Positions 8,431 through 62,288 of a stretch of 64,000 nucleotides of DNA are shown here, one piece after another. This DNA is from Chlamydoabsidia padenii (Eukaryota > Mucoromycota > Mucoromycetes > Mucorales > Cunninghamellaceae), in contig JAIWND010000040.1 of assembly GCA_025330725.1 (NCBI GenBank), forward strand, positions 62,001 through 126,000, in the 5' to 3' direction. Within the stretch, counting starts at the first letter, position 1. Each line of letters starts with the position of its first letter. The notes beneath the pieces are model-generated. The model was not told where the DNA came from, made no database searches, and was given only the letters and a program-made list of their open reading frames with translations. The translations under genes and the position numbers were made by a program.

Positions 8431-11400
8431 TCAGGGTTTGTAAGACAGTAATAAAAAATGGAAGGTCAGAAAAAAGAACTCATTTATGCGTATGGTTGAC
8501 TTACAACCTTTAACATCACGTATGTTCGCTATACGGAATGGTGAACGAGAAAGCATTGCTGGCCTTGTGTTGTTATTGATGACGGCGAGCCTAAAGAGAG
8601 CATGGATATTGCGGGAAGCATTCGCGTCCCTTTGCCATACAGTATGACAGCTATTGTAAACTAATACTGTATACAAAGGAAAACAGTACTCACCAGCAAG
8701 AGGTATGTTCGTCATATTTTTGCGGCCACAACAAGTGAGATTTGCGAAGTATTGTTTTCGTTTATGTCCATCATGATCAGCCTTCCTTGACCTTCCGCCC
8801 GCTTCAACAAAGTCCGACATTTCGAGGCCAATCCTGTGATAGGTTTCCCACGGTAGATGATTTGATCAAATTGGGCTTCACCAAAAACAAGATGGGGATC
8901 CTTCGACGGTGCTGGTTTCTTGAACTCCCCTATTGTCCCAAAAAGAAAGAAAGAAAGAAAGAAAAAAGTAAGCATTCATACTTTAGCAAAAACCTTCTTC
9001 GATAAAGTAACTTCCTCGAGATTCTTTCTTCGTGGCACAGGTGGCGGAGGTGGTCTTTGTTGAGCCGAAGGCCATATTCTTCGCCGTGGTACCTGCCTTT
9101 GTCTTCTGTTTTGTCTTCTTTCTGGATGGTGCCGAAGCCTGCTCCTAAAGTCCATATTTTCGTGATACTTCATGCCACCATTCACGAGAATGTTTATCAT
9201 TTCAGCATCCATCATTATCGACTATGTAATACATAAAACGCAAGCCCTGGCGGTCCCTGGAATCGTAGAAAGCGGTAGATCAGCCAATGCGTGCAGTCTG
9301 GTCACGATATGATCGGGGATACCATCCATATTGACTGTTCGATTAGTAGCAATATCAGCTTCCAATTCCGTATAGTATCATTCTTTGCGCTATTGATCTT
9401 GTACATTGTTACCTGAAACTCCGCTTTTGTGTAGTATTCAGCAGATGATAACTGCCAAATTTCGTGGCTAGCTAGCACCGGAGGTGGACTAACAGAAAGA
9501 CTTTGAGCATGACCAACAAGAGGATCAATAAAAGGATCTTCAACAGGACTAATAGAAGCAGGCTCGGCGACAGGATCAATATTAGGATCTTGAGCAGGAT
9601 CTTGAGCAGGAATATCGGGGCCATATACAGCAAATTCGCTTCCGTTACTGGCTACGTAGACACTGGTGACACCAGGATCCACTCCCCATGTTTTCAGAAA
9701 CTTGAGCTCCCATTCTTCAAGATCATTAGCCTCCAAACTTGGTAACGAGACATGGCTATCTGGCACAATTTCTTTGGTGAATGATACCGATATTGAGAAG
9801 CCATCTGTATGGATATATCCCTTGAATCCCATTCTATTGTTCACAGGGCTATAATGGAAAAAAAAGTAAGTAAAACAGGGGTGACGCAGAGTTGGTTGAA
9901 TCATCAGGTTTACAAATCATATACTCACCTTCTTGTGCCTTTGATTTTGGTCAAGTTCAAAATCGTATCCAATTCTTGATGAGGGGCACCACGCTCCGAA
10001 ACTTCTGTCGCAAGCATAATCGTTCTCATGGCTGACTTGTCAATCTTGATGTGCTTCTTCACAAAAGACAGATAAAGGACCAGGTTGAAAAGGCGCTGTC
10101 TAGTGATGATGTGATCCAACTCCGGCCTGAAGGTACCATCAAGAAGTTATTCCTGCTCATCAGGATTCTCCAAGTATCGCCTTGATTGACATATTTGTTT
10201 CTGGGCTTCACGGGCGATATCCACTATTCTTTACCAAGCTTTGATGTTCAAATGACGAGATTGATCATGGAGGCCAGGATCCCTTTCACCCATGATCATT
10301 GTACGCAGTATATGAAAGAATCGACTTGCATGCCGTCTACCTTGAGGACATTGTGGAACCGTCTGGATCTGTCTTCTGCACCAAAACAACGGAGGAGTGT
10401 CCTACACTAAATTTGCCGCACGAATTTTAGCCTGATTGTATCTTTCAAAGTAAAAGACAATGTTGTAGGCATACTTGATGAAAACATGGACATTTGCAGT
10501 GATATAGTCGTTGGTGAGAGGAAGCAGCATATCGATATTGGCTCGAGTCATTGCAGTTGGTGACATCAAATTCATCATATTTTAAAAAAGCCCTGAGTTC
10601 CCAACATCGTTGTTTCCATAGTAAAGCCTGGTAACATTGTCTCGGTCGCCCATCCTTGCTATATACTCGTCTAGGGGTTATTGTATATTGTCAAACACTC
10701 TTTGCAACCTGTTGGTCCAGTCTTCGGCCTGATCACGGCTAGCGACTAATCTTGCATCACTATTGTCAATAACAGGTTGCCGATGTGGAAGTTGATTCAT
10801 AGCGTCAATGTGACTTTGCATTCGTCGTTGTCCGGCCTCCATAGCAGCAATTTCAGCATCAATCTGTGCTTCTTCCCAGTGCGCATTAATGATAACGGAG
10901 ACAAACTCATGATTATTAGATGTTGTTCGTATTAGTGCTACACATTGAGCCTGTAGAGGCGGAAGTTCCAACATGGCATTAACCAGCGCAAAACGAGACA
11001 TGCAAAAGTTTATGGTAGGGGACAAAGGGAGGTCTTCTTGGAGTAAGGTAAATACAGATTTTAAGCAAGTTGCCAAACCAAGGCGTCCAGTAGACACGAT
11101 AGCGTTGGTTAATTCCATGTATTGAGTATTTAAGGCGGATCGATAAGGATGGACATAAGCTTTCCACAGGGACATAGAGTTAATCGTCAACAGATCGTTC
11201 GAGACTTCATCTTAAATGCGTTGGATATAAACACCACCAGTGTCAATTTTTCAGAACTCGGATAATTGAGTAGGCAAGTTTACCAAGTTACCCTTGAGAC
11301 GATCAACAATATAGAATCCTAATAAATCCGCATCACGATTGGAGCAGGGGGGGGTTATTTTTTTCAACCCCCCCCCCCGATGTAGATATATACTTTGACA

Positions 11401-12493
11401 AACATATGTACTTAACTTACCAGTCGTTGATCAGCAACTTCTTCACGTAGCTGCAAAGAAAAATACTTCCAATCCAACGTATCATATCTTTCACAATACG
11501 ATTGGTAAACACAATTGTATAATGTGTCATAGTGTCATTGACCGCACCGGAAAAGTTATTACCATGATATGTGGAGGTAACCAGTAGAGTTTGACCATTA
11601 GCATGTAAAATTTCTTGCAGAGCATCAAAAGCTCTTGTTATCTCATCGGCAAGAGACGGGTGTATAACATTACTGGTGGTGATAGGAGTTCCAATAATGA
11701 GCTGAAATACCGCTTTTGTTAAACCATGCTTCTTGTACGGGTTGCTTATTTGTCAATGTATCATAAACGTAATAGGTCATAAACAGATTTACCTTGAAAG
11801 CCACGTTGCGGATATAACCTACCACGTTGTTGATACCACCAATCAAGTTATCCCTCCGCGTTGGTTCCAGATGCAGCAACGACTTGAGACCAATTTTTCG
11901 AGTGACAATGTCTGTTCCTTGGATTGGAGCAGGAGGTTCTCCGCGTGCAGCCCGTGCTTCTTCAGCTTCTTCCTTGTCTTTTGCTTTCTGAGCAAGTAGC
12001 CTCTTGGCATACATATACACACTTGTTACTTGTACTGCGACTATGATGTTCGTCGGTCGTATAGTATCCCTCACGGACACAATGAGAACATTTTATAATA
12101 GAGATGTCTGTTGCTGCTTTTGTTCTTTTGGCTTCAGCGACTTTCTTTTTTGTTTGTCCACCGATGTTTGCTTCCTTTTTCTTCTCCTGGTAGGTCGAGG
12201 GTCGAGGGAGAGCTGCTAAGAGTCCAGGGTCACCATCATCATAGCCATCAGCGCCGTCATCACCTGGTCACCTTGAGCTTGTATTTTTTTTGGGGGAAAA
12301 AAGCCAGAAAATGATACAATACTAATAACAAAATGATTTTTAAAACGACACTTACCACCACCCAGAGGATCTTGTTGCTGTTGCTGCTTCAATTATTGCT
12401 GTTTCAATCGTTTCTTGTGAAGAATAATATCCCTCCTGACATGTTATTAAAGTCTTCTTCAGTTAGAGGTTGGAGTGTGTCTTCTCCCTCCAT
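8431..12493 (-). pseudogene. Fanzor-like (eukaryotic TnpB) endonuclease, locus A, degraded
   Basis: A multi-exon gene on the minus strand, now broken. The likely start at 12493 begins MEGEDTLQPLTEEDF. Blocks at 11670-12080 and 10678-11190 encode helical, charged N-terminal regions. The block 9302-9904 carries the wedge-like phrase YIHTDGFSISVSF and the RuvC-I motif WGVDPGVTSVYVASNG, then LSSAEYYTKAEF, shared with loci C and D. The block near 8880 has the RuvC-II region (MDINENNTSQ), and 8431-8820 has zinc-ribbon remnants (CCGRKNMTN) and the RuvC-III motif WQRDANASRNI. RuvC-II and the ribbon are in different frames, and stops interrupt 9216-9300, so it is a pseudogene. In known Fanzors this D-E-D triad cuts DNA guided by an RNA from the gene's 3' end; activity is not expected here. 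Its 3' side abuts a piggyBac end. Confidence 0.75.
11344..11382. repeat. G-run / C-run inverted repeat
   Basis: A run of G followed by TTATTTTTTTCAA and a run of C forms a potential hairpin with a GGGGGGTT / AACCCCCC stem. It sits inside locus A, between its coding blocks. It may be a replication-slippage product or an intron structure; no function is implied. Confidence 0.5.
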
Positions 12494-12585
12494 TATTGAG
12501 TATGTGTATGTATAGGATTTCCAGTATGAAAGAGGAGAAAAATATACAAGAAGAGCAAAGAAATATTCTTGATGGTATTCACCCA

Positions 12586-15926: not shown

Positions 15927-15982
<56 letters not shown>

Positions 15983-17506: not shown

Positions 17507-18097
17507 CTACTTCTTCACGGGAGCGTCCTTGATTGCAGTTGAAAGAGTTGTAAAGCTTTCAATGGCCCGAGGACCACTGTGTTCCCCAAATTGAGTTATG
17601 AGCACATCACCAAGATGAGCATTTTTCAATGTTGCGAAAAGCGAGTTAAACTCCGCTACTGTTAACTAAAATATAAAGAATTATTTTAAGAAGTTGTTAT
17701 ATTTTGCATAAGTTACTTTGCCAAGTTCGTCGAACCAATTGACAAGCTTTGGAATACACCAGAGGGCCGGGCAATGCTCACTAAGCAAAGCCATTCTCAC
17801 AGAAGCCGCTCTCCAAAATTCCACAGTACGAGGGTGCACTCCAATCTGACCTGCGAATTCCCTGATAGTACCATCAAATTTGGAGAAGTGGATTGCCACC
17901 TTGATGAGCCTGGCAACTTTTTGCCCCGCAAGCATCTCCATCGTTTGATCGATCATTTTGACCTCTTCATAAAGGATGTACGTCTTTTTGGCAGATTTAG
18001 CCACTGGCCCCACCTCACCTACCTTGACAACAGGAATCTTGTCAACAGGAAGAAGGGTACCTCCCTGGACTTCGGGAATAAGGGTACTGTCGTACAT
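17507..18097 (-). CDS. Hypothetical protein, unknown family
   Basis: Two exons, 18097-17717 and 17665-17507, give 179 residues with a clean GT-AG phase-0 intron of 51 bases. No family is recognised. The protein is mixed helical with no signal peptide or membrane segment. The segment IREFAGQIGVHPRTVEFWR has the look of a helix-turn-helix (small residue, GVHPRTVEFW as recognition helix), so DNA binding is possible. The start codon lies inside a dispersed repeat shared with 47183-47292, so the original N-terminus may have been replaced when the repeat arrived. It could therefore be a transposon-derived or truncated gene. Confidence 0.5.
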
Positions 18098-18200
18098 GGC
18101 ATTGGTTTATTTTTATTTTTCATTTTTATTGAAGTGATTGATCTCGAAGTGAGCAATCAAGTCAAGTTTTTATTTTTATTTTTATTTTTTCAGAACCATA
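18084..18200. repeat. Dispersed repeat, inverted copy at 47183-47292
   Basis: The plus strand from TACTGTCGTACATGGCATTG through GAAGTGATTGATCTCGAAG, GAGCAATCAAGTCAAG and TTTCAGAACCAT matches the minus strand of 47183-47292 nearly base for base, apart from lengths of ATTTTT runs. It has no terminal inverted repeats. Confidence 0.75.
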
Positions 18201-18777
18201 TAAATATATACGTATGGTACAGTGTTTCCGAAATTACTTGTCGCACATTTTGAAATCGTTGTCGCACCTGAAAAAAAAACGGACGTCGGATTTCCAAAAA
18301 ACAGACATCGGGATTTTTTTGATCAACCTGTCGCCTTTTTGGTTTTGATTTGACGGCAAGAAGTTGTCGGGATATCCTAATGGTCCATGTAAAGTATAAA
18401 GACAATGTAAAAGACAGTAAAGATACAAAAAAAAAAAGTTTATTGAAAGAATCAAATCAAATCATCCTAAACTAACGGTAAGCGACAAGGTAAACTAAAC
18501 TACACTAAAAAGAGTTTCCATTGAGACAATCATCAAAGCGGGATCAAAAGAGCAATGTAATCCACTGAATCCAATCCATCCACTGACTTGACCATATTCC
18601 AACGACTGAGCCCATCAACATACAAAAGTTAGCAATAAACCAAAGATCATTATCGTTTTTCCCATAGTATGTAGATCCAACAACATGGTATCGCCCTGTA
18701 TAATCATCATCATCATCGCCGCCACCATTGTAGTATCATCCCTAATTCTAACAGCCCCTTACCCTATCGCATCACCA
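18201..18777. other. Intergenic, no gene seen
   Basis: Short minus-strand frames here (18190-18455) may be remains of the region upstream of the hypothetical gene, but I cannot join them with confidence. A CATCATCATC/GCCGCC patch lies near 18700-18725. Confidence 0.35.
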
Positions 18778-21727: not shown

Positions 21728-21751
21728 GGGAATTGTTAAATCGACCACATG

Positions 21752-21782
<31 letters not shown>

Positions 21783-23067
21783 GACCACATTTCGGAAGTC
21801 GAAGTAAGATTTCTTCCTGTTTTTTTTTTTTTTTCTTCCTCTTATTTTTTAAACAATTACAACAATGTCTGACCAACCTCAACAACAAACAATTTACACT
21901 AGCCCAACGCCTGACCTTACTCAGTTTGATGATGCAAGCAGTGTTAAAGACTTTCCGGAACACTTTGGTTATGAACATGGATTTGCAATCACTACGAGGC
22001 GTTCCAGAAGACGGGGTGGACCTACCACTGAAATCACTTCTTTCGATTTTAAATGTGATCGTGGTGGTAGGTACTCCAGCACCCATACTGGTCCATCGAT
22101 TCGAAAAACAACCGGCACACGATTGATTGACTGTCCTTTTTTGTGGAAAGCCTCAAAACTTCGAGGTGGATGGGTGCTCAAGTACAAAAACAACAACCAC
22201 AATCACCAACTCGACGACGATATTTCCGGTCACCCTTCGGCTCGCAGATTGAACGAAACATCACGCCAAACTGTTGCGGTAATGTCGGCTAGTGGAAGTA
22301 GTCCTCGTGAAATCGTCTCCTCTCTTCGCCAATCCAACCCTGGTATGCCACTCATTGCACGAACCGTTTACAACGAACGATATCGAATCCGTCGGAATCA
22401 ATTAGACGGCAGGACCCCGATTCGTGCTCTTTTGGATGAACTGACCCAAACCGACAAATAGCTAGTTGATTTTAAAGTTGGTGATGGAGATAACTTGACC
22501 CACTTACTTTTTTTTGCTCACCGTAAATCTCTTGGCTGGATTCGACGATATGGATCGGTTTTACTTATGGACTGCACTTACAAGGTAAATCGCTTCAAGA
22601 TGCCTCTTTTACAAGTAGTTGGGATCACAAGTTTTTGGACTACCTTCTTCTGTTGTTTTGTATTTTTGGCAGCGGAAACACAAACAACTCTTCGGTACAC
22701 CATGGACTAGACGATTTTTGCACCTTCGGTCAACGACAACCTCACGCGTAGAAAGTGCCCACAGTATGCTGAAATCGTATATCAAGGTATCGACCCGTCA
22801 TCTTCGTGATGTACAGGAAATGATCGCTCTCGCTGTGGATAATCAGGACTCGGAAATCAAGGCAAAAATACAAAACGATCGGATCAGGATTGCGCACACT
22901 CACCAAATTCCTATTTTTTCTAATTTGATTGGTAGGATCTCCGGTTATGCTCTTGCTGGTACCTTGAAACAGATGAACAAGTCGACTGAAGCCAACTTAC
23001 CACCATGCACCAACAGCTTTACAACAACTATGGGTAAGTGAGGTACATGTACAGTATACGGTTTTCT

Positions 23068-23109
<42 letters not shown>

Positions 23110-23726
23110 GTAACAGGCCTACCTTGCGCTCATTTTATCCTTAACATCACCCAGAATTCTATCAACGGAAAACTGACAATGGAAGACTTCCATCGCCAGT
23201 GGTGGATCGATGATTCAGTGGATATACCGGAAAACGAAGTGCAGGAAGGACAAAATGGCCATGGAGATATTCAAATTGTTATGGATCGCCTTTTGAATCG
23301 CTACAATCAATGGCCTTTACCACAACAATTACAGGCAAGACAGCGGTTAACGGAAATGGCTTTTGGACCATCACCTTTGATCCATGATCCAGTAATTAGA
23401 AGGGGAAGGGGAAGACCAGTTGGATCGACGGCACGCCACACCACCTCATCAACCCAAAGGGATCCTTCGTCGTTCGAAATCGTCGAACGTACTGAAAGAC
23501 ATTGCGGAAGATGCAGGCAACCCGGCCACACTGTCAGAACTTGCCCTAACTAATATTTGAAGCCGTATCCTTAAATTTTTTTAGTATAGATTATCCTTTC
23601 CCTTAGTATAAATTATCCATCATATCACAATAAAATGCACTTTTGCCTTGTTTTTATTACCGGCTAAATTCAACTTCCGAAATGTGGTCGATTTAAAAAA
23701 AACATGTGGTTGATTTAACAATTCCC
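21728..23726 (+). mobile_element. MULE element 1 (complete ends, 2.0 kb)
   Basis: The left end GGGAATTGTTAAATCGACCA and the right end are inverted copies of about 55 bp, both continuing through a T-run and the phrase AAATCGACCACATTTCGGAA. The flanks are ATAAAAAAA on the left and TTAAAAAAA on the right, an 8-of-9 match to the 8-9-bp target duplication typical of Mutator-like elements. The element encloses a degraded FAR1-type transposase. Confidence 0.82.
21865..23553 (+). pseudogene. FAR1/MULE transposase, internally deleted
   Basis: The first block (21865-22461) begins MSDQPQQQ and is a FAR1/WRKY-GCM1-like DNA-binding region (EHGFAITTRRSRRRGG, CPFLWKASKLRGGWVLKY, NNNHNHQL). After a stop at 22459 the transposase core survives only as VLLMDCTYKVNRFKMPLLQV, carrying the first catalytic Asp. 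The middle of the DDE domain is missing, and the sequence jumps to TTSRVESAHSMLKSYIK, carrying the Glu. The end has a SWIM-type zinc finger (GLPCAHFIL, after a 37-T tract) and a CCHC knuckle (CGRCRQPGHTVRTC). The deletion and stops make it inactive. The knuckle after the SWIM finger is typical of fungal MULEs. Confidence 0.8.
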
Positions 23727-25337: not shown

Positions 25338-25601
25338 GGTGAGAGAGTGTGTGTGAGAGAAAGAAAAGCAAAAGACAAGGGGCGGACCCTTCTTTATTTA
25401 GTGTGAAAGTCTAATTTTCATGAGTAACTTGAATTTTTCGTCGAATAAAATGTTAGTTAGCGTTTTGCAGAAGAACATATGATGTCTAACTTTTTAACTC
25501 ACCTTCTAAGAGACCCATCTCGCCTCAGAGGACGGGAAACCGAGAGTATTCCCATACCAGGAAGGACGCGACCCAAAAAGATGTTTAACTAATACATTAG
25601 C

Positions 25602-25744
<143 letters not shown>

Positions 25745-26693
25745 ATGATGTTGAGAAAGCAGGATACGCCACATTTGTGGCAGCCAGATGTATACCAATT
25801 TTAATGATGTTAATGGCAGCATTTGTATCTCGACCACGAAGTGAGTATCCAAAGCAATCGGGGTTGATACAGTGGACGACACCAAGGTTGGCGCGACCGT
25901 TCCGACGCTTTGGATGCTGGACACGACTATCACAAAGGCAGCATAGTTTGGATGACAAGTATTCGTTTGTGTCGATCAATTTTGTATTTGATTTCGAATA
26001 CAATGCCATTTGTAGCCGGTCCGTACTTCTTCTTTCTTGCCCATGGATTCTTGAACCAAAACCACGACCAGCATCGCCATAATAAATGGTGGTAGGTGCA
26101 GTGATTTTTTCCCCTTTCCCTTTCCCTTTTTCAGCCGTAGCAGGAGCAGCAAGGGAAGCAGAAGTAGTAGCACAAGCAGCACTAGCAGAAGAGAAAGCAG
26201 GGGCAGAAGAAGAAGAAGAAGAGGAAGAGGAAGGAGCAGCCTTTATGATCTGATTAGCGACGGTGGTGTACGCCTTGTCACGAAAAGGCGGCACACCGTT
26301 TTTTATCTTCTTCATCCAGGGCGATTGGTGATAAAATTGTGTCAAAATGTCTCTTGATTGCTTGTTATAGAAAAGTTTATCAATGAGCACCTCACATACA
26401 TTGTCGGTTTTCCACCACCAAGACATTATCGTTCTTCTTCTTTTCACCTTGCAGTTTGATTCGGTTTTGCAAGGTCCGGGCTTTACTGCTAATGGACTTG
26501 GCCAATATTTCCTTCTTGACAAACTCCAGAACTTTTTTCTTGCATCTTTATTGTTGTCGAGATGTTGTTCCAAAGCTGCATACTTGATAGAAAGTAAGAG
26601 GTACGTCCCTGATTGTTCCGAGTTCATAATCACCGCCGACGCTATGGTCTTGACACCAGGATCGACGCCAATATACTTGCTTCCAACTCGTAG

Positions 26694-26727
26694 GTAGCCA
26701 TCAACAGTAGGTAGCCATCAACAGTAG
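26694..26727. repeat. 17-bp tandem duplication that frameshifts locus B
   Basis: GTAGCCATCAACAGTAG occurs at 26694-26710 and again at 26711-26727. Since 17 is not a multiple of three, the frame upstream (TSSCEPTVDGYL) no longer joins the frame of the RuvC-I motif downstream. Counting one unit only, the two frames join directly. Confidence 0.85.
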
Positions 26728-29535
26728 GTTCACAAGAAGAAGTAGTATCAACGGATTTTTTACCATTGATGTTGTTGTAGATCACCGCTTTCTTCTTGTT
26801 AGCTACATCAATGTCAGCATATACATCAGTAACTTGATGGTATATGCGATTTAAAGATGCTTTGTTGATTTTCCGCTTTTCGATACATGCTTTTTTATCT
26901 TCCATGAGCTGACTGCTGGGTGATTCACGAAAAGACTTGACAATGTTGAAGATCTGTTGATTATTGTCTTTGATAGTCTTTTGCAAACCAGATACGGGCG
27001 CCTTGATACCTTTCAGTCATGCATAAAGGTTGTTGGTTTCTTGTTTCAAAGCGGCTATGTCGTCCCAGTCTTTTTGTTTGTCAGCTTGCTGTCAATGTGC
27101 TTTGTGACTAACCGTCGAAGAAGCAAATGGATGAGAAAATTCCTTTTTGTTATAAGTTACTTGAAGATGGATGATGCCAGAAGATGTAATGATGATCTTA
27201 TTATCGAATTCAACATTTCTTTTGGCACACAATCCTTCAACCTCTTGCATATCAATACCTGTTTCGAAAATGGCTGCAGGATTCGGAGGAGGCCATTTTC
27301 AAACTTGTAATCGAATCGTCTTGTCTGGTTTTTAATATGCTTGTGTTTTTCTTGTTCGAGTCGTCAACACATCGGGTGAATGTATAAAGACCATTGTGAT
27401 TGATATGGAGAGCATGTAGTGTGCCCAGAGAAGGTTCAGGTGTCATCTTACGTGAGTATCGACCATAACCAGTGGATTGCAGCACCGCGTTACACATATC
27501 GATAATGTGAAGATTTACCAATACATGACTATCAACCTCGGCTTCATTCACTTCTTGTAAAACAAAACGCCGAAAGAATGTAAAAACCTTGATGATGGGA
27601 GCAGTTGACTGTTCGTTGATTGCTGGGAAGGTGTCCATAATTTCCTCTTGCGTGAGCGGATCGTCATTTGGTTTTTGTCGTAGATGTTTCATCAAAAATC
27701 CACATAAACGATTGATCATCGCTGCGCTGGGACAATGCTGAAGATCTGAGGTAGTTGCCGAGGTAGTATTCATTACTTCATCATCCATTGCTTCATCATC
27801 CATTGTTTCAGTAGAAGGATTGCCTTGTTCAATAGGAGCATTCTTTTTTTCAAAAAGAGTATGTTCTTTTCTCATGTTTGCGATTTTCGCTTTCAGATCA
27901 TTGAGTTCGGTTTCGAGATTTTCCACCTTGGTTTTTTCATACAGGATTTTTTTCTCATAATGAGCTTTTGGTGTACGTTGTCCAAATTTTCGAATTCTTT
28001 TCTTGCGTTTTCAAAGCCGCAATTCCAGTTGTCTCCGATCAACCATAAGTTTTAGTATTTGAGACTTCTTTTCAGCAGGATCCTTTTTTGTCGAGTGAGC
28101 ACTAAAAAGAGAAGAGTAAACATCAGTACTTTAATTATCTTCATTATAGAATCAGTTGGTTTTCTTTTATTTACCCGCTAATTCTATCATAGTATGATTT
28201 TTCTCTTTCTGGACACAAATTTATCCGTAACAGCACAGTAATAGCCTTTTTAATAACATAGTTCACCCGGTTGTCTGCGTGCATATTTATAATGTTGGTT
28301 GCCATTATCGTGAATTGAGGAAGAATTAATGGATAATATCCATCAGGTAAGTCGTTTAAAAAGCATGCATCAAAGTCTTCGTACGGAAGTATGAACTCTT
28401 CATTGGTAACTTTCAAAGATGACATCCCCATGGAAGAAAATGACATTTGAGAGAAAGACGTAGACATTTCAGTGGAAGAAGTTGACATTTGAGAAGATGA
28501 CGCTTCATCAAGCACTGTGTAGTCTCTTCGTTGTTTTGCACCATAAAACTTGTAAAAGAGACGTTCAAGATGTCGATTTGTAAATGTATCCAATAGTTTT
28601 CTTTTTTGAGAATCCGTTCGTGTTTTCATATTCATTAGTCTATCCTTCATGTCCCGGTCGAGGTGAGCCAGTTTTCTTTCACATTTTTGTCGGAGATGGG
28701 AAGACGGTACAATGTCAGTAACAAATGAATAAGAAGAATGGCTGTCCAAAATATAGTACAGATACATTAGTTGTCTTTAATAATATATAATTTGATGGAT
28801 TTACCTGTCAAGGTAGGACTGTGCGATCAGGGGTACCATGATTGACATCTCGTATACTACATCAGAAACAGTCTTCATCACATCCAAGTATCTTTCTCGC
28901 CATTTTGATTTCATAATTTTTGTATTTACTTGATGGTCTTCACACCTTGGTTCACCTTCATTCGCTTGTTTCCTTTTAATTTTGGCTGGTCATCTGATTG
29001 CTTTCTTTTTGATGAGGTTGAAGCTTTGCCGGTATCTTTCCTGGGTGACGTTACTTCATCATATACTGCATCAACGTTTTCTGCTACAAACTTTCGCCAT
29101 TTCACCTCCAGTGCATAATAATTTTTGACACAGAAGTCCGTCATACTATCTGCAGTCGTAGTTGTTGGCATATCTGCATGTGAAAGAATGATCAGTAATT
29201 AAATTTATATATACTTGCTCACTCTCCCTTTTACCTCCATCTTCCAGCTTCCCGTTGCATTCATTCCACAAGGCTGCGGGTTTTTTATAAAATAAACAAA
29301 AACGAGGTTTCTGTTGATCCTCCTTGTATCTTTCCAATATGACTTCTTTACTTGTGGGGATGTTCTTGAAGTATTTGACAACTTTCTTCAGCTGTTCCTC
29401 CAGTCGGTCCTTAAATGCCATTTTGATGAAATGATCACATCGTTCTGTATACTGGACATGATTATAAAAACTTCGTCCATCCTCAGGTGGAGGGATAGGG
29501 TGAGATGTGTTTGATGAGCCAGCGTCTTCATCCAT

Positions 29536-33025: not shown

Positions 33026-33070
<45 letters not shown>

Positions 33071-42572: not shown

Positions 42573-42750
42573 TTGAGACAGCGTCATTGTTTTTTAGACA
42601 GTGTGAATTAAAGTTTTAGATAGAGTTACATAATTTTTGAGACAGAGTGGAGATAAATTTTAGACACTGAAATTTATTTTTAGACAGATGATTATGCAAA
42701 GTGGAAGCCAAGAAAAAAATCGAGACAAGGTACAAATAAATTTTAGACAA
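42573..42750 (+). repeat. Helically phased array at a Tc1/IS630-like terminus
   Basis: Eight copies of a K-A-G-A-C-A motif (variants GAGACA, TAGACA, TAGATA) start at about 42575, 42595, 42617, 42639, 42661, 42681, 42722 and 42744. The spacing is 20-22 bp, with one double gap of 41. The array directly precedes the transposase start at 42804 and the outer end reads TACAGTATTTTAACTTG. Such arrays could be repeated transposase-binding sites on one face of the helix. Confidence 0.72.
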
Positions 42751-42803
42751 GACTTTTTAGAATGGTACTTTTTCCCTTTTTCTTTTGTTCTCTGTACTAT
42801 CTA

Positions 42804-43828: not shown

Positions 43829-46237
43829 ATGCTGGAATACATTGAAAGGTACTTACCAAGCTACCCCGAAGAAAAGGTCCGCATGACCTTCAACAACGAA
43901 GTGGAGTTCAACTACTGGATGACTACGGAGGTCGCCAATCATGCAACATTTCGTATCGATAAAAAGTACAAGCCTACCAAGCCAGATGCGTCGCCTACTG
44001 GAGGTGCTTTAACGAGTGTATTCTATGAGACCATTCGGGACAGCCTGCAAAGAGGAAGACGGATAATGGTGAAAATTTTCTGAAACGCCCTCGCCAGACA
44101 TACAAGCCGTTGATCAAGGTCCAATGCACGGCGAAGTTACTGCAAAAGGTCCTGAACAATCGCACAATTATGGTGGTCTACAATTTGGTTCACGTCAATC
44201 ATAACCCCACTTATTTGCACGAAATGGCGACCGAACCACTCGACAAAGATGTCATCGCGTGGCTAGAGGACAAGGTGATGGGCCAACGAATGGACTGGGA
44301 CACGATCAGTGCGCTCCTTAGGTACAACGACAATGAATTCGATGTATTGGTAAGAAGAAGAAGAAAAAAAGGATATCATCATTGCCCTCGCATTATCTTT
44401 TTATTTATTGAAACTGATGTAGACAAACCAACTGGAGGAACAGCAAAGATTCCCCAAGGCGTTAAAAATCAACTACCGGGTTGTCCAAAATATGATCCAA
44501 GCAAGACTAAACAAGGCATCCAGGAAACACACCTTGGGCAAGGAAAGCGTGCGTCTTTAGTTGGAAGACTTGACGTCGACCAAAAAGTATACTACATTTT
44601 TCAAAGTGCATCCTGGTGTAAACGCTCCTCTTTTGGTGTCCTGGTTTGCGCCCTGGCAAAAAGAGGTAATATATTATGAACTTGCCATTTGTCATTTGTA
44701 TATTAACTATCTTTTCACTATTGTCTTATTATTGCAACATTAGCTTTTGGAAAATGCTGTTGAATGGTCTCTGGATAGTACTCACAAGACTTGCAAATCG
44801 TTTATTGATGGTACTGATTGTTATCTTTTTTATGATCCTAGTTGTCAATCCAATCACCAGGCGTGGCGTCCTTACGTGCTTTTTTATAACAAATGCTGAA
44901 GTCACGACGGTGCTTACTGAATGGTTGGAATGGGTCAAGACGAACAACAATCTGAATGTCAAACGAATTATGACTGACTGTAGCGCTGTCGAAATGGCGG
45001 CTATTCGAAATGTTTTTGGTGCGAACTGTGCCATACTTTTAGTCACTGGCATATCAAACGTGCTTGGGATGTCAATCTCAAAAAACTTTAAGTATAATTT
45101 GTGATATCATAGTCATCTTACACCCATCTAATATTTACTTTTACGTTTACAGATCAAGGTACCGAATGCAAGTGCCGCATCACAATTGGCGCAACGATCC
45201 GCGTACTCGATGCTCAATGAAATGATGTACTCCTCTCCCGTCTCTGCATTTGACGCTCACTGGTTTCAATTCAATGAATCCTTCTCACAATATGATGGAT
45301 TTATCAGATACTTCGACAAACAATGGATTCCAAAAGCTCAACTATGGGTTAAGGTCCACAGAATGGTAAGAAAGAAGAAAAATGGAAAAACAGTATACTC
45401 ATTACTGTCTTTATATATATGTCGGATGCAACCTTTGAAACCAATAACTTCGTCGAATCATACCATAGCAAGTTGAAAGGCAAGTATTTAGGTAAATCAA
45501 GAAACCTGCATGTGGATCGCATCCTTTTATTTTGACAACACAAATGTGCCCGGATTACCGTTGTGATGCGTTGATGGTAAATTATGGTACTGTTGCTGCT
45601 GCTCTTCGTCCTCATGAAAACAAAACTAGGAAAGTTATCAGCAAGATGGATGAACAGGATGTGAATCGAATGATTACACCAATTGATGAAAAGGTAAGAG
45701 CAATGCATTTATGGGACACAGTGTTAATGACTGACCTAATTTTATTTACTCTAGACTGTTTCATGTAGGTCATTCACCTATCTACATATTGCTTATCAAG
45801 TTTTTGTTGAAAAAAAAAAAAAAAAAAAAAAGACCACCGTTGAATGCTCTTGTCCGTACAATAAAGGAATATGTCGGCACATGTTTCTTGTTGCTCGTGC
45901 ATTGAATATCTCCTTTTGGCCGACCGTTATGTCTACTTCTCCGGCAACAAGTACACCATCTATCATCGCTACTACTACTACCACTACTACTACTGACACA
46001 ACCGCTGTACCAACCACTGACGATGAAACAGTCTCTCAAAAATTCAAGGACTCTCTTCTTCTTGATAATAGAGAACAGTGGGACAAGTTGGAACGACTGG
46101 CCTTTGCGGAAGTACGACAAGCAAGAAATTCATCAAGCAATGCCGATATTGAATATGGTATGGTGCAGCTACGACGCCTCATCACTGAAATGCAAAGAAT
46201 TAACAACCCCAACGCAGGCCCATCAAAACAAAGGTAG
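43829..46237 (+). pseudogene. MULE transposase, frameshifted
   Basis: It begins MLEYIERYLPSYPEEKVRM and has a DNA-binding N-terminal part (EFNYWMTTEVANHATF), then VKVQCTAKLLQ-like and DWDTISALLRYND segments. The DDE core is spread over frames: Asp in SLDSTHKTCKS, Asp in IMTDCSAVEMAAI, then CHWHIKRAWDV in another frame, and Glu in NFVESYHSKLKGKYLG. A SWIM finger (CSCPYNKGICRHMFLVAR) and a Thr-rich, helical tail to 46237 follow. Several frame changes between 44760 and 45100, and a stop near 45540, show that it is inactive. It is a different subfamily from the transposases of elements 1 and 2. Confidence 0.75.
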
Positions 46238-46640
46238 GTAGTTAAGACATAGAAGCATTAATTAGAATAGTGTTAAAATAGTTATATAAACTAATTATAG
46301 ATTAGATATAGAATAGTTATAAAGTAGTTATGGATTTATGAATTAATGAATAAAAATTATATTCTTTTGGCTAACTGCCAAAATAAATTTGTTAAATGTG
46401 GTGATTTGGTTGTTTGTTTCATGCATCTCTGAATATCTTGGTCCCCTACATGCTAGTTTTCTCTCAGGGTTTGAAACCATTGTATCTCTTACATTATTGA
46501 CGGGAGCACTTTGTTAGATATATGAATATCTCAATTACTTAACTGCTCCACATACTACTGATCTTCAGTGTCATATAATGAGAAATAGACAGACGATTAT
46601 CAAATAATATAGAAAAGGTACGCATGGATAACAACTTGAA
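46238..46640. other. Non-coding 3' part of MULE element 3
   Basis: AT-rich sequence with repeated ATAGTTAT-like words at 46270-46330. No gene is visible. At 46642-46670 a GC-richer patch (CCCCGCCGCATGAATGCGGG) resembles the inside of the element's terminal repeat, and 46680-46700 holds an AAGCC-TTTTTC-GGCTT hairpin. Confidence 0.4.
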
Positions 46641-47182
46641 ACCCCGCCGCATGAATGCGGGATTTGAAATACTTCACAGTAAAGCCTTTTTCGGCTTTGC
46701 ATTTGCATGTTTACTCAAATACAATCATAAACAATATATGTTCAAGCTAGATTATGTTGGTTACTATGTACCATTTCTATGTAAATGAAATTTATGTATG
46801 TTTATTTCCACTATTCATTGGCAAAAGTCATTTAAAGAATGTGAAGTAAAATACTGAGACGCCCTTATTCAACTTGGTTCGAACAAACTTTTTTTTTTTG
46901 AAACTGCCATTCTTTACACCGTGTTTAAGTAAATACATCGTTTGTTGTTTCCTGCTATGACTCTGTAAACTTGAATATGTACAATCACTATCATTTATTT
47001 TGTAGAGTGATTTAAGATTGAGATGATTAGACGGGATTTCAAAACAAGTGTGGCTTCAACATACTAGAAATTTTTAAAAAGACATGATTGAATACCCACC
47101 GCATGACATTTGGTTTTAAAGGGCATTTATCGGTGGTCGATAATCTTCAACTACTGTATTACCCTACGTATATACTTGAATG

Positions 47183-47292
47183 GTTCCTGAAAAAATAAAA
47201 ATAAAAACTTGACTTGATTGCTCACTTCGAGATCATTCACTTCAATAAAAAATAAAAAAATAAAAATAAACCAATGCCGTATACAACAGTAG
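47183..47292. repeat. Dispersed repeat, inverted copy of 18084-18200
   Basis: The minus strand from TACTGTTGTATACGGCATTG through GATCTCGAAGTGAGCAATCA to CAGGAACCAT matches 18084-18200. In locus D it begins exactly where the Fanzor-like coding similarity stops, after the residues equivalent to the TMDGI of locus C. Confidence 0.75.
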
Positions 47293-49285
47293 GTACATTA
47301 GTTTCGAGCTGCTTTATGCAATGTTTAATCTTGCGAGCATCTTCTTTCTTCATTCTGTTAAGAGCCCCAGACATATGATAGTATTCAGCAGTAGTGAGCT
47401 TTCTGACTTGATTTCCACCATGATATGAGACAAACGCATCTTTACTTCCAGGGTCAACAGTACACATCCGAAACGTTTGGTCCACTTCTTCTTCAGTAAA
47501 ATCATCAAGAGTCAGCTCAACAGCATCCAAAGGATTTATAACCACCTTGCGAGCAAAAAGAACACGGCAGGTATGACCATCAGTGTAGACGGAGTTCATG
47601 AACATACGGTCCGGAGTTGCATTACCTTAATTGTCAGCTCTATTGCTATAAGAAAATAATATGCATCAGTTTATAATTCGAATATAACAATTTGTGTTTC
47701 CACTTACTATTTAACTCTCAAATTATCGAAATTGAAGTAGTGGTCAAAAATTTGTCGTGTATGTGCTATGTCTGTACCGCCCGCTATTCTAGTAGGTATA
47801 TTCTCTGCTGGAAAGAAAAAAAAAGAACGTTTTGAGAATCCATTTTTATGAAGTGCCATTTAATACTAGAGCTAGGAAACAGAGAGAACAACCTTGGTTG
47901 AACAGGTTTAGCTGGTACTACAGGGACGCCTTCTTCAGGCAGTATAGGTACGCGCCGTTGAGCATCACCTTCTTAAGTTTCACTTTGCTGAGCTTCACCT
48001 TCTTGAGCAGCTGAAAGTCTGATATTGGTCTCATAAGTTTCTAATATATGTCTAAAAACAGACATGACACTGATAGGGTTTGCAGAAACGGTAACTTTTG
48101 TGATAGGCTCTGCAGGTAGTCTGTTCGTGATAGAACTAATGAGCCTAGCAACTTGACGTTGGAGTTCAGGAATTATAGCATGACTGTTAGGGAACATTGC
48201 TTCAGTAATCTCAAGAGGCTGTCTTTGCAGAAAGACTCGGTCTAAAATATGATCAAATACAAGATTCTTGATACGTCCCATAGGCAAAGTCTACATAATA
48301 TCATAAAACAATTAGTTTCAACCTTTTTAAGAGAATTCAAATCATATGTACCTGATGTTCATTCTTGATGGAGTTGATGAATTAGTTTGCAACAATGCTT
48401 TCAAAGTTTTCCACATAATAGTTGTTATAACAAGTAACAAGAGTAACACAAGCAGTGGAAACAATTTGACCGTAATTACGCAGATTATTCAGGGGCACCA
48501 AAAGATTTATATTGTAAGTCGAAGTAAGCGTGTCATAGGAATGTTGAAGGCCAATAAATCCAGGGTACCTTGTTTGAGCATCGTCTCGTCTACAGTAATT
48601 GATCCGTATATTATTCGGCACATAGTGTACCAAAAGTTTTGATCGCAAATGTTATTGGAAATAGCTGTATGTTTTTGAATTACATTAAAGTTAACCAAAA
48701 CTGAGCCTTGAAAATAACCTCATGAAGAAAACTTGAAAGAGCAGTAACTTTTTCTACTATCGGTGGTAAAAGATCTTGATTATTGAGAAATGAGGACAAA
48801 GGGATAGAAACGGTGTAAGTATCATAAGGACCATCAAAGGCGTTTCTTATCGTCTCATCCAGGGTAAAATTGTGATTTGGACAATCTTTGCTTCTACTAC
48901 TACCATGGCCAAGTTGTTTGCAAGATTTACATGGTCCAACATTTGTATTTGCTTGCTTTCTTGTTGCCCTTGCAGACGTCTTCTGTTTCTTGATGGCTTT
49001 TGTTTCTTTAGTCTTTTTACCTACAAGATCGACAATATCTCAGTACAAATTCTAATAAAACGATTATATTCAAAACTTACGTTTTCGTTTAGCAGGAGCG
49101 GCGGAAGTTTCACCTTGATTTTCATTTTCATCTTCACCATCAGTATCTTGTTCATTTTCAGCTTGTTGTTGTGCGAGTTTTAGTTGCTTTTTTCTCGGAT
49201 CAAACGGATCGCCTGATAGTAAGTAGTACGAGCCAAGACAGAAGAACACCCTCCAACAACGTGGCAGAGAAGACACTATCACCAA
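47237..49285 (-). pseudogene. Fanzor-like endonuclease, locus D, 3'-truncated
   Basis: The N-terminal block (49285-49080) is Lys/Glu-rich with a KRKRKF nuclear-localisation-like end. Next is a zinc-knuckle-like segment (CKSCKQLGHGSSRSKDC), then FTLDETIRNAFDGPYDTYTV and a helical region parallel to locus A (IPLSSFLNNQDLLPPIVEKV). After stretches with stops around 48300-48700, the block 47605-47290 has VYTDGHTCRVLFARKVV, RuvC-I (CTVDPGSKDAFVSYHG) and KLTTAEYYHMSGAL. RuvC-II, the zinc ribbon and RuvC-III are missing: the locus is cut at the dispersed repeat 47183-47292, next to the right end of MULE element 3. It belongs to the same family as loci A and C. Confidence 0.7.
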
Positions 49286-50258
49286 AGAGTTACTTGCTGA
49301 TTAGAAGAAAGAGAGATAGAGAAAAGGATATATATATATATATATATTGAACAGAAAGAAACTTGGTGTATTTATATCTTTCACTTTTTTCAAATGATTG
49401 AACGAATATGAACACAAATCTTTGTTCGACAAATTTGGACAAAGTTGTAACAACCGTGAAGATTACGTTTTCTTTATTTCAAATTGTGCTTTTATTTTAT
49501 AATTTTTCTGATTCGGATATAATGTAATAAAAGGGGTAGTTGAGATAAATATATATGTTTGAGCTATCCATACTTTTAGTGAAGTGGAAAGTAAGTGTTG
49601 TAGTAAATGGTCAAGTAGGTTGATTAATCAAAAAGTGTCAGAAGTGTGCGGCGATCTTTTCCTAATTTGTCACAAAGGTTGTGTTACACTTTTCTCTTCG
49701 GTTTCGTAGGATAATGTCCTGAATTCATTTACGAGTTGAATGTTTCTGTTCGACATTTGTAGAAAAAAAGAACAGCACAGAAGTCAGCCAATGTTGTTAT
49801 TTGACAGTGATGCATGGCAAAGTCATCACTGTCCATCTCATCTGTACCTCCTTCTTTTGCTAGAGATACTTTAGCAATAGGTTTGTAGTTGATGTACTTA
49901 TTCTAGAAAAAGTTTACATTTCAAATCTCGAATAAAACTTCCCTTTTCTACAAAAAGTATTTTTTAGTCTAAACTTGAAGGACCATGCTGTTTAAAAAAT
50001 AATAATTCGAGTCTACAAAAAAGAAATCTCTGGTCTTTGTCTCAATCTCAAGTTTAACTACTGTAATGTCAAAAGAAAAATTGGCCAATGAGATTGCACC
50101 ATTGCCGGGAATCGAAATTCACCAATGTAAGAACACTCGGACTTGCTCCATTTTATAGGCTTCGACACTGCATGTTGCTCTTGTCAGGTTTACTTTGTAT
50201 ACATGATTTATAATCAAAGAAAAAAGTGACTTTTTTTTTTATTTAGTTGATTGACTGA
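49286..50258. other. Intergenic with a hairpin
   Basis: No gene is supported. It holds a (TA)n tract at about 49329-49347 and a perfect 10-bp inverted repeat, GACAGTGATG at 49803-49812 with CATCACTGTC at 49824-49833. The right 100 bases are the 3' flank of the TLC gene. Confidence 0.45.

Positions 50259-52080: not shown

Positions 52081-52113
<33 letters not shown>

Positions 52114-57391: not shown

Positions 57392-57396
<5 letters not shown>
56245..57396. other. Intergenic, no gene supported
   Basis: This stretch includes the permease promoter, with a TATA-like word at about 56389-56400 on the minus strand. An 80-codon plus-strand frame at 56419-56661 is Lys-rich with no recognised motif. 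The stretch ends at a 51-A tract. Confidence 0.4.
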
Positions 57397-57449
<53 letters not shown>

Positions 57450-58019: not shown

Positions 58020-58666
58020 CCTATATACCATAACAATTTGACGTCTAATAAAGACTCCATCTTTTTGTATCACTTATTTTTTATTGATTTGATTGCTGAC
58101 CACCTCCTATCTTTGAGACATTCTTATCCATTGTTGGAATGATTGGCTCACCACCAATTTTTACACGCTATCATTTTCCTAGCACTAATCAACAACTTTT
58201 TATCACTTCCTATATCCTATAAGAAGGCTCTACTGTACTTCATCTTTGTTTCCATTCCTTTGTCTATGCCTAGTCCACTCCTTCTATATGTTCAAGTATT
58301 TTCCAGGGAGTGACCGCTTCCACAACACCACTGCACTTTGGTGGTAAGTTTTATCATTTCCATAGACAAAAGGGGCTGATCACATGTGCTAACTGACTGT
58401 TTGATTTCTTTTCCTATGTATTAATGCTTTTGCAACCACTTTCAAACATTGTATATTTTATCGTTGCTTTTATTTAATAAAACTAGTAAACACATCTTTA
58501 CATACACAAATGAAAAAAAAAAAAAAAAAAAAAAAGAGACTAGAGGCAAAACCAATATTTTTCATGAGTCTGTCGATTAACTTCCAGTTAGCATATAGTG
58601 GATATTATTATGTATCTGGCTTTTTTGACTTACCGTTGGCCATGAAGGATCCCGAGCTCGTCCGCC
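58020..58666. other. Intergenic with a short A tract
   Basis: This holds AT-rich sequence after the LINE-like fragment and an A-run at about 58512-58535. No gene is supported. The right end borders the last coding block of Fanzor-like locus E. Confidence 0.4.
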
Positions 58667-61600
58667 TCAAGGGACGGATGTCCCGCATTCTCTTAACCGA
58701 GAGATGGGCGGAGACACTATTATTTCAGCCAAGTTAGTTGTTGCTACTGCTGATGTTTTTGCTATTGGTCTGTAGGAAAATACGGGGTGATCAATCAAGG
58801 CAATTTTCTTGTACAATCCAATCTTGAGTTTGTTGCTTGCTGCATTGGTGTCCCGACCGCACGCAGAGTAACCCCATTTATGGCCGAAGCAATCTTTGTT
58901 GATACAGTATACGATGCCGAGGTTGGTTTTGTTGTTGGCCTTTCTTGAATGTTGTAAACGTGAATCACAAAAGCAGCACAATTTTGAAGATAGGTATTCA
59001 TTGGTTTCTGTAAGTGCACATACATCCTTCAGTTTTTTTTGTAATGTTTTAGTGTTACGTTTGTCGTACCCTTTGATTCTTGAGCCAAACCCTGTTCCGG
59101 CATCCCCATAAAAAATGGTTGTATCCCTTTTTGTCATGCCCTTTGGAGTGAAACAGTATCGTAAGCTTTGCTTGTGAATCTGGATTGTCCTCCTCCTTGC
59201 TTTTTCGTCCAATTGAATTCATGATAGAATTTAACCAAGTCATCCTTGCAATGTTTTCCAACGTTATGCTTGTTTTCAATACTTAATTTGGCCGCTTCAG
59301 ATATAGAACTTTCCAATGCATATATGCTGGTACCACCACCATCGCTGTCTTCTCTTTCCTTCTTGTTTTCATCCTTTTTATGTTGAAGTTGGTGACGATA
59401 AAAAGTACTTCTTGACTTGCAGTTGATATTGCTTGCATTTATTTTCATAGTATGGAATTTCATGAGCCATTTGACTTTTTCATGATCATTTTCCAATTCT
59501 TGAAGCAAAGGTAAATACTTGTTTGCGAGCAACAAGGTCGAATAAGCTTGGCCACAGTCCATGGAAACAGCACTTGCCATATTTTTCACTCCAGGATCAA
59601 CGCCAACACAACTGCCTTTTTCGATCAACAAATTAACAGTTGGAGGAGAACGATTTTGCTTTCTACCATGAATCGTATCATATATGCTTGCTTTTTGCTT
59701 GTTCAGTTCATCGATTTGATGGTACAGATCCAGAATATTCCTATTTATATCTTCCAGATTTTCGGTAGCTATCTTGCGTTTTTCAAGGCACTTTATCTTT
59801 TGAGCAACGAGCTTGTTAGGATCAGCGGTAGAGGTAATATCATTCATTTCATCCATGATGTTCTTGACTTCTTTTTTCTTTGTCTTGACAAGTGTTTTAA
59901 AACCAGGTATACGACACTTTGCTTTGGCGATCAAGGAGTGAAGCTGTACAGTCTTTTTCTTTGGCTCCTTCAAAACGTCCCATTGACTTTTTTTTTTTTT
60001 TTCTCGCAGCTCCACTGGTTGATGAAGTTCGTGCAACATTGCTTTTGATAAGGGTTTTTTTCATATAGGCCTTGGATACGTACAAATCCAGTAAATGTTA
60101 TGGTGATGTTGTTGTTGAAAGTCACTTTTCCACGCTTACATAGATTTTCAATACCCTGCATGTGAAAAAATTCTTCAAGGAAAGATTTCTGTGTCGTCAA
60201 GTTTGCTTTGAGCTCATGTATTTCTGTCACACTTTTGATCGAGCCTTCAGGTTGATGAGTGCGCGACCGGTGTATATTCTTTTCGATGATGCTAACATTG
60301 TCAAATTCTTTGTTTATGTCCGTTTCTGTAAGCTCAAAATTTTTTGGCCGGTTTCGCAACAGATTCATAATCCACGTACACATTCGATTGATTTTGGCTG
60401 CACTTGAGCCCACAGAAGTAGTTGGATGGTTGGGAGTAGTATATAAATTGGTAGCATCTGGTTCATTGTCATCGGTTTGCAGTTATTCCGCCATCAGTTC
60501 GTCCTCCAGTAAAGTATGGCCAGTTGTAACGTCTTCAGTGGTTTGAGCAGGGGAAGTGACTGGTATTTCATTGTCCGCATACAGTGCATATTGAAGTTCC
60601 ATGATTTTTTTGTTTTCATAGTAAAGCTTTTGGCGTATTTGTTCAGTTTGTATCCGACGTTTCAAGTTTTTGATGTCTTTTTGTCGTATCACGAGATTAT
60701 AGTCTTCAATAAAAAGTCTTATTTAGGATCAAAGGAAAAGCTTAACAAAGATGTTTGCATGATATCGGTACTTGAATATGATACTTTTAAAACCCGCACC
60801 GGCTTTGATGATGACAAGTGAAGTGTCAGGTTTAGTAGGAGAGCTAAAATATGAAAGAGCAAAATGTGAGCATCCTAGCTCAAGGCATACATTTTTTTCC
60901 CTTTTGAGGCACCTTGTTATTCTTCGAAAATACGCCTTTTCTCGTTTTGGAACACAGTAAATCTGCAAAAGAATGGTGATGGCCTTTGTTAAAAGTACTC
61001 GAGCCGGTTATCAGCATGCATATTCAGGATATTTGTTGCCAATATAGTCAGTTGTGGGGTAATCATGTCTCTATAACCAGCTTCAAGATTCGTCAAATTC
61101 AATGTGTCACGTACTTCACCAGGGCTGATGAACGGTGTGTTATTATCGAGGCCCAACGACGATAGTCCTAGTGATCTAACCGTTGATATTAATGATGCTG
61201 CCAATGATGGCACTGATGATGATAGTGCTGGTGATGATGATACTGGTGTAGATGGTACTGGTGTAGATGCTGCTGCTAATTTTTCAATGTGGCTTTTCGT
61301 TGTCGTTCACCGAAATATGATGTATATAATGAATTTAAATGGTTTATTGAAAATGCGTCGAAACAATCTTCTACCACCAACGGCTTTACTCAGCTTCTGA
61401 TTTTGTAGTAATTCTTTGATGCTTGTGGAAAGATGATACAATAGTCTGTCACAAGTTTGCCTGCGGTAATCTTCAGGAACAATTTCATCAATACTGCTTG
61501 AGGTCAGTGGGCTTTTTTAAAAAAAAAATAATCAATAACCAGACCTCGCATATAGAATGGATGATGTTTTGATTGACATACCTTTCCAAAAACTTGCGAG

Positions 61601-62288
61601 TTTAAAGTTCAATGATTGTCATCATATCAAAAACAGCGTGAGAAACTGTCTTCATCCAATCCAGATAATTGTCTTTTATGAGAGGCTTCAGCACGTTTGT
61701 TTTGTGGTCACCACTTTCACTTCTCGATTTGACTTCAACCGCTTATTTTTTGAGGGGGCTTCTTGCTGTACACTTTGACGTTTCTTTCCTTTGGACCTTT
61801 CACCATGAAATTCATCATACGCTGCATCGCCACTTTACTATTGTTGGATAGTTTTCTGTGGTCAGTACTTTCGACACATATGCGTGATTGGTTCTAGATG
61901 GTCTCTCTATAAAGTTATAAATAAATGATACATAAGTAAAGATATACCTTTGATCATGTTTTTTTTTTAGTTTACCTTGCTGATGGCCACGAACGCCCAA
62001 GTTGTTATTCCATAAAGTTGCAATATGACTGTATATCTTGAGAGACTTTCTTTCCCCTTCGTTTTTATTCAAGAACTGTAAAAATTTATCCTTCGTTGGT
62101 ATCATCTTCCCATATCTTTTAGATAACTGTTCTATTTCCTTCACCAAGCGATCCGCTAACACCTTATGTACAAAGTAGACAAACTGCTTATCATCATCGT
62201 ATATAGTATGGGCCTCCGCTGGTTCAACGGGATCGATGTTCATATATTGGGCTGCTTCCATCATATGTTTATACTTTTTGATATTCAC
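58667..62288 (-). pseudogene. Fanzor-like endonuclease, locus E (second family)
   Basis: The start at 62288 (MNIKKYKHMMEAAQYMNIDP) and the first exon parallel locus B: VYFVHKVLADRLVKEIEQLS, then KMIPTKDKFLQFL, against HFIKMAFKDRLEEQLKK and NIPTSKEVILERY. The exon 61213-60989 (ITPQLTILATNILNMHADNR) also matches B. Then come 60413-59970 (KINRMCTWIMNLLRNRPKNF), a helical block with RuvC-I (CVGVDPGVKNMASAVSMD), and LESSISEAAKLSIENKHNVG. After a frame change near 59150 follow TTIFYGDAGTGFGSRIKGYD, RuvC-II and zinc ribbon (ETNEYLSSKLCCFC, VYCINKDCFGH) and RuvC-III (CGRDTNAASNKLKIGLY). All three acidic residues are present. Damaged reading near 61220-61800 adds to the frameshift, so it is inactive as read. 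Confidence 0.75.

Follow-up and report, generated by a model that had tools for sequence, protein, structure and literature searches.

Among the described carriers of Fanzor genes, the closest to those considered here are the MuDr-type Fanzor1 elements of the Mucorales (Rhizopus, Phycomyces and Mucor), which are flanked by 9-bp target-site duplications and are described as lacking a transposase (Bao and Jurka 2013, PMC3627910). The best-studied fungal case is Spu-1 of Spizellomyces with its gene SpuFz1, and there too no transposase was found within the element ends (Saito 2023, PMC10432273). For Fanzors in general, the reason for which a transposon retains such a nuclease and the identity of the transposase that mobilizes it are open questions. 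Here we analyze a stretch of 64,000 nucleotides (the window) from a 222-kb contig of Chlamydoabsidia padenii (Mucorales; contig JAIWND010000040.1, assembly of 34.2 Mb in 95 contigs) that contains five Fanzor-type loci, A to E, all on the minus strand and all broken. We read them as decayed Fanzor genes of two families, A/C/D and B/E, and we read the B/E-type genes as cargo of Mutator-like (MULE) DNA transposons with imperfect terminal repeats and 9-bp duplications, the composites having moved as units. We put the probability of this reading at roughly 85%.

The elements ROr-4, PBl-3 and MCi-4 (PMC3627910) come from the same fungal order and likewise combine MULE-type terminal repeats, 9-bp duplications and a Fanzor cargo. 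Compared by description only, they encode no transposase, whereas the Fanzor block of C. padenii is joined to two transposase-bearing MULEs. The same paper describes MCi-2 and Sola2-Fanzor chimeras, in which a constant Fanzor part is also joined to varying partners, although their duplications are 11–12 bp and 4 bp and their partners a Crypton fragment and Sola2. Spu-1 comprises 42 gene loci beside 134 gene-less ghosts that share its ends, and has a conserved block between the stop codon and the element end, much as in C. padenii. It differs in having no transposase within its ends, in its TA rather than 9-bp duplications, and in that a guide RNA was shown in Spizellomyces whereas one is presumed in C. 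padenii (PMC10432273). Finally, Fanzor1 of the ascovirus SfAV has the DPG motif and a shifted glutamate, and belongs to a DNA transposon that has both terminal repeats and target duplications. For SfAV, these repeats and duplications are placed in the guide RNA scaffold (Yoon 2023, PMC10711439), whereas the C. padenii elements are described here from DNA sequence.

MULE-type Fanzors and ghosts are already known, and the new part is the transposase-bearing partners. We found neither transposase-bearing MULE-Fanzor composites nor oriented insertion adjacent to a motif in the literature searched, which was covered by title and the start of the abstract, with subscription papers mostly outside the scope. 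In C. padenii, a single duplicated target site encloses the Fanzor block together with a transposase-bearing MULE, and many gene-less copies have the same ends, which makes the partnership testable. That elements insert in one orientation and at a set spacing from a host motif is a specific and countable statement on target choice.

Composites of a Fanzor-type gene and a MULE-type transposon

Locus B, a broken B/E-family Fanzor gene (25509–29540, minus strand, 5′ limit approximate), lies within an 8.3-kb composite. The left part of this composite is the Fanzor block (25422–30130), which begins, on the 3′ side of the gene, with a left terminal block (25422–25447, minus strand; GAGTAACTTGAATTTTTCGTCGAAT..) that is partly lost in the window copy. 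The right part is a MULE-type transposon, type i (30131–33729, plus strand), whose terminal repeats measure about 170 bp (within 30131–30301 and 33552–33729) and which has transposase-like open reading frames (ORFs) at 30691–31293 and 31253–31990, and a SWIM-finger ORF at 32399–32707. The target-site duplication AATTTTCAT stands on both sides of the whole, at 25413–25421 and 33730–33738.

When the element start is set at GAGTAA, the target duplications measure 9 bp. Five composites have a placed right end (C-numbers denote contigs of the same assembly, and W the B composite in the window); the duplication is perfect in W, C23, C55 and C32, and has two mismatches in C41b. Because such composites carry flanking 9-bp duplications, the element at locus B is taken to extend from 25422 to 33729. 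This corrects the initial annotation, as does the homology at locus E, which spans 58584–63617.

Nine copies of the B element, including that in the window, have the same start point and unrelated left flanks. At one internal border, the Fanzor block is joined to the type i MULE in W, C13 and C25a. The same border is joined to a second, related MULE (type ii) in C23, C55, C32 and C41b, while in C25b and C41a an insert of ∼0.4 kb lies between the border and the beginning of type ii. Matches to the MULE ends also occur with no Fanzor match nearby, as judged by coordinates only, on C15, C71, C89 and C41 (at 146k) for type i and on C73 and C68 for type ii. An internal deletion (window 26156/28145) is common to four copies (two on C25, and one each on C13 and C32), indicating that damaged derivatives also multiplied.

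One further region, G000:C5:60419-63766, combines within 3.4 kb the terminal block with a terminal repeat of the type i MULE and a fragment of a B/E Fanzor, and is perhaps another composite.

Family membership of the loci

Two features make up the published Fanzor fingerprint: the RuvC-I motif DPG, and a catalytic glutamate placed six residues ahead of the zinc finger (Yoon 2023, PMC10711439). In the B/E family, GVDPGVK is present in B, E, P0007 and L015. The second feature, the shifted glutamate of NEYLSSKLCC, is conserved at 90% or more in 17 cores, and the CCxC block nearly so, with K, V or D replacing the glutamate in some decayed copies. In the A/C/D family, the glutamate and the first cysteine are invariant in eight cores; RD or RN is found in seven of these and is lost in C of the window; and DPG is present in A and D.

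The TnpB/Cas12f zinc-ribbon profile PF07282 matched the genome 32 times, 30 of them over the cut-off. Against pieces of the window, neither its match to C (E = 0.00014) nor that to B (E = 0.0013) reached the curated cut-off, and in the same search the pieces of A and E and the remaining pieces of B gave no such match. Relatives of A/C/D exceeded the cut-off in four of four cases, a relative 88% identical to C doing so at 7e-13. When compared to the PDB, the A/C/D profile matched Cas12m, IS605 OrfB proteins and the TnpB-like protein L79, a mimivirus Fanzor2. L79 was also the best match of the B/E profile (E = 0.0065, of two matches with E up to 1), the alignment consisting of two short stretches, at NEYL..K.C and RD.NAA. 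Only profiles gave these matches, as PDB searches with single proteins returned nothing relevant. The B/E and A/C/D profiles also align with each other (probability 78%, E = 1.8e-5).

The initial annotation had identified the loci as Fanzor-like (eukaryotic TnpB), and these data support that view: both families carry the published fingerprint, the A/C/D relatives exceed the PF07282 cut-off, and the best PDB match of the B/E profile is L79. For B/E, no Pfam match rises above the cut-off. From their residues and alignments, we take the B/E genes to be a divergent Fanzor family. Assignment to Fanzor1 is made by context only, namely the DNA transposon of a mucoralean fungus.

Copy number and selection

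Searches of the genome itself returned 128 matching fragments for B, 50 for E, 35 for C and 24 for A. We merged, within 4 kb, the 178 B/E fragments (from the B and E queries) and the 91 A/C/D fragments (from the PF07282, C and A queries), obtaining at least 72 B/E-type and at least 41 A/C/D-type loci, or at least 113 in the genome. Other merging distances gave 72–74 and 39–42, respectively. These counts are lower bounds, since locus D was missed by the searches. They agree with the repeated Fanzor expansion proposed earlier for this genome. Seven loci fall on the contig of the window, four of them (A, B, C and E) in the window; the Poisson probability of at least four loci in 64 kb is 7e-5 at the genome density, a sign of a transposon-rich contig.

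To assess selection, we calculated dN/dS in the RuvC-II/zinc core for 91 pairs, 23 of which were usable (pS below 0.7). Values were below 0.5 in 17 pairs, between 0.5 and 1 in three, and above 1 in three, the six pairs with higher values being among the closest. This shows that the core was under past purifying selection between subfamilies, and hence that the protein did something. As to the intact relatives that the initial annotation thought likely elsewhere in the genome, some copies (L002, L013) retain uninterrupted C-terminal stretches, and an unbroken full-length gene was not identified among the copies examined.

Terminal block and gene-less copies

The left end of B/E-type elements is GAGTAACTTGAATTTTTCGTCG, and the Fanzor gene runs towards it. 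Proteins B and E are 42–54% identical in the core, yet their elements have this left end in common, most copies being 88–98% identical to one ghost over 44–64 bp. A search of the whole genome for the terminal block (31 bases, up to 3 mismatches) found 123 copies (70 forward, 53 reverse), of which 48 are exact; the reversed control gave 0. Among the 100 positions listed of these 123, a B/E locus is present within 2.5 kb of 17 and an A/C/D locus near none, leaving 83 away from B/E genes. When the distance is extended to 10 kb, the corresponding numbers are 19 and 2.

We then considered 15 exact blocks away from known Fanzor loci. Nine have a recognizable right end and are 362–408 bp long, which leaves no room for a Fanzor gene; these are ghosts with both ends. 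The right end was unrecognized in the other six. The right ends of the ghost and of the C39 Fanzor element are 92% identical over 53 bp.

In an alignment of 28 Fanzor and ghost copies, most show, in gene orientation and 80–100 bases before the element end, a GGT(A/G)AGT that resembles a splice donor and, after it, a CTAAC/TTAAC that resembles a branch point (e.g. L011:1310-1459 and L079:199-348). Conservation of these splice-like signals raises the possibility of an intron on the 3′ side, close to the putative guide RNA.

Insertion beside a host motif

Target choice was analyzed in two sets of insertions. Set 1 consisted of 20 (5 composites and 15 ghosts), with both ends placed in 14. Set 2 consisted of the right-end regions of 20 further exact block matches, picked before their flanks were seen, with the end recognized in 11. 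In set 1, 9-bp duplications free of mismatches were seen in 7 of the 14 cases, and duplications with two or fewer mismatches in 11; none was found in L085, L087 and L091. We scored the motif GCGGGRTTTRAA as present when it occurred with two or fewer mismatches at offset 13 from the right end.

The motif lies exactly 13 bases past the right end (the 9-bp duplication plus 4) in 9 of 14 insertions in set 1 and 9 of 11 in set 2, hence in 18 of the 25 insertions with a recognized right end, and in one orientation. Exceptions in set 1 include C32 and W, with 3 and 4 mismatches at offset 13, C55, with 4 mismatches one base earlier, L085, with 2 mismatches at offset 21, and L091, with nothing. For set 2, mismatches at offset 13 were 4, 4, 2, 1, 0, 0, 2, 0, 2, 1 and 2, the first reflecting a one-base shift of the called end. 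Among the nine set 2 regions with no recognized end, L104, L107 and L109 show the motif, by eye, 13 or 14 bases past TTTACTC, and the other six show nothing clear. Left flanks in set 1 (30 bases) never came nearer than 3 mismatches on either strand, and in set 2 shuffled flanks gave 3 or fewer mismatches in 7 of 5,500 cases. Reverse-strand matches were also seen near the right flank in L084 (2 mismatches) and L111 (1 mismatch). These data show that the sampled elements insert beside a short motif of the host in one orientation.

The 12-mer GCGGGATTTGAA has 1,880 copies in the genome, against 0 for the reversed control and about 3 expected from base composition by our own estimate. In the window, 15 matches with two or fewer mismatches were observed versus 5.4 expected. 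The sequences fetched contain 11 distinct matches to GCGGGRTTTRAA, 10 of them beside element ends, the exception being at window 46657–46668. Five copies of GCGGGATTTGAA on C1 have no element end in the preceding 40 bases and share no further bases. Since the flanks share nothing further, GCGGGATTTGAA is a short host motif; that it is a promoter motif is a guess.

Two other identities for GCGGGATTTGAA were considered, a tRNA B-box and part of a longer repeat. Both were rejected, since the flanking sequences diverge immediately, next to elements as well as at the five element-free sites. An apparent strand bias of the motif on C1 is consistent with truncation of the sites listed there and was set aside. 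Separately, the exact GCGGGATTTGAA at window 46657–46668 faces a near copy at 46636–46647.

Possible mechanism and alternative explanations

Going by what is known of the family, a MULE transposase would cut and paste the element by its two unlike ends, and the motif, or a factor that binds it, may place and orient the insertion. The Fanzor gene would be read towards the left end, with a guide RNA that ends in the terminal block and continues into the flank. For Fanzor1, the guide RNA scaffold includes the terminal repeat and the target duplication, according to the SfAV paper (PMC10711439). With such a guide, the Fanzor protein would cut an empty copy of the site, and repair would retain the element.

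A bolder proposal is a system of Fanzor-bearing MULEs whose integration is both addressed and oriented, composites and ghosts having the same end facing GCGGGRTTTRAA 13 bp away. Either the transposition complex or the Fanzor ribonucleoprotein might be tethered to a host factor, or the motif might be the adjacent-motif signal of the nuclease, and the ∼100 ghosts might constitute a guide-RNA library used in trans. We regard this proposal as tentative, at somewhat less than even odds.

Several results weigh against the reading of the B/E-type genes as Fanzors carried by MULEs. The MULE and SWIM matches of the partner transposons all fall below cut-off (MULE, E = 0.013, for type ii; ZSWIM RNaseH-like, E = 0.01 and 0.0046; SWIM, E = 0.0014 and 0.0018). 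The C13 composite has no matching target duplication, and a brief search found no element ends or partners for A, C and D. In the B/E family, no Pfam match lies above cut-off, PF07282 matched none of four other B/E-type proteins at 0.01, and neither of the L79 stretches is significant alone. The RuvC fold was not recovered, AF2 models of P0007 and P0013 reaching pLDDT values of 47 and 44 from shallow alignments. Treated as RNA, the terminal 150 nt gave no structure signal (z-scores −0.76 to 1.71 in six sequences), and only 1 of 15 consensus pairs in the terminal block had changed on both sides. Because there is no signal of stability or covariation, we do not claim a structured guide RNA.

This last result bears on the alternative that survives best, namely that the Fanzor genes are passive passengers. 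The MULE transposase would then move anything between suitable ends, the terminal block would be conserved for transposase binding rather than as a source of guide RNA, and the ghosts would be ordinary MITEs. Such a scheme fits the missing RNA-structure signal and the conservation of the right end: no guide RNA is expected there, yet ghost and C39 element are 92% identical over 53 bp. However, purifying selection acted on the core as the subfamilies diverged, and in Spizellomyces the 3′ block is guide RNA, ghosts included (PMC10432273). We consider passive carriage rather unlikely, though far from negligible.

We think it improbable that the composites are chance neighbors, Fanzor elements having inserted beside MULEs in pairs that never moved together. 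The three type i pairs do share one junction, type i does keep its internal terminal repeat, and C13 does lack a matching duplication. On the other hand, a perfect 9-bp duplication surrounds the pair in W, and type ii pairs have perfect duplications at three of four sites. In addition, the 9-mer AAGTTGCAT is found crosswise on C25 at two inverted copies about 16 kb apart (L018/L063 and L017/L062/L072), as an inversion between copies would give, although the reciprocal duplication pair was not found there.

Least probable of all is that B and E are no Fanzors and encode some other protein of a transposon, in which the zinc ribbon is a mere look-alike; despite the sub-threshold Pfam results, the weak PDB match and the poor structure model, DPG, glutamate, CxxC and RD occur in Fanzor order and spacing, the B/E profile aligns to that of A/C/D, and L79 is its best PDB match.

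Loci and other remains in the window

A check of motifs and reading frames confirmed the five loci at the places given in the initial annotation, on the minus strand and decayed. The uniform minus-strand orientation that it noted applies to the window alone. The shared phrases of B and E (GVDPGVK, YGDAGxGFGSRI, TNEYLSSKLCC.C and GRDTNAA) were all located in both loci. Those proposed for A, C and D held in part: AxYY is present in all three and TDG and VDPG in A and D, but C is without TDG, VDPG and RD, and D is without the zinc ribbon. A, B, D and E each read across several frames, and the machinery in the window is a dead fossil.

Locus A (8434–11211, minus strand) retains an N-terminal part (10681–11211), TDG (9779–9808), VDPG (9671–9682) and RD (8614–8631), with the NTS and zinc-ribbon block frame-shifted at about 8715–8866. 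Locus C (37548–39127, minus strand, upper limit approximate) has a zinc ribbon at 37981–38016 and is missing the RuvC-III RD found in its relative on contig C53. TDG (47555–47584) and VDPG (47447–47458) mark the broken Fanzor-like gene at locus D (47154–49300, minus strand, limits approximate). In locus B, DPG is at 26655–26666, GDAG at 26070–26081, NEYLSSKLCC at 25932–25952 and RD, within RDTNAA, at 25815–25832. The equivalent positions in locus E (58584–63617, minus strand), which comprises a broken Fanzor gene and element remains with both terminal repeats lost, are 59590–59601, 59099–59110, 58967–58987 and 58838–58855.

The 3′ part of the B Fanzor frame contains a TGT microsatellite of ∼50 units (window 25602–25753), which reads as poly-Thr. 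An inverted repeat of ∼135 bp, 87% identical, links the remains of locus D (47160–47291) with window 18085–18219. The ORF at window 42747–43388 resembles a helix-turn-helix transposase by eye, with no Pfam match at 0.01; it recurs with 95% DNA identity at L031:2474-3158, next to a Fanzor locus of the B/E type on contig C54. Further MULE-like remains, perhaps partners of D or C, are seen at window 21853–23553 and 44029–46237, where one ORF has a sub-threshold FAR1 domain and another a SWIM finger over the cut-off.

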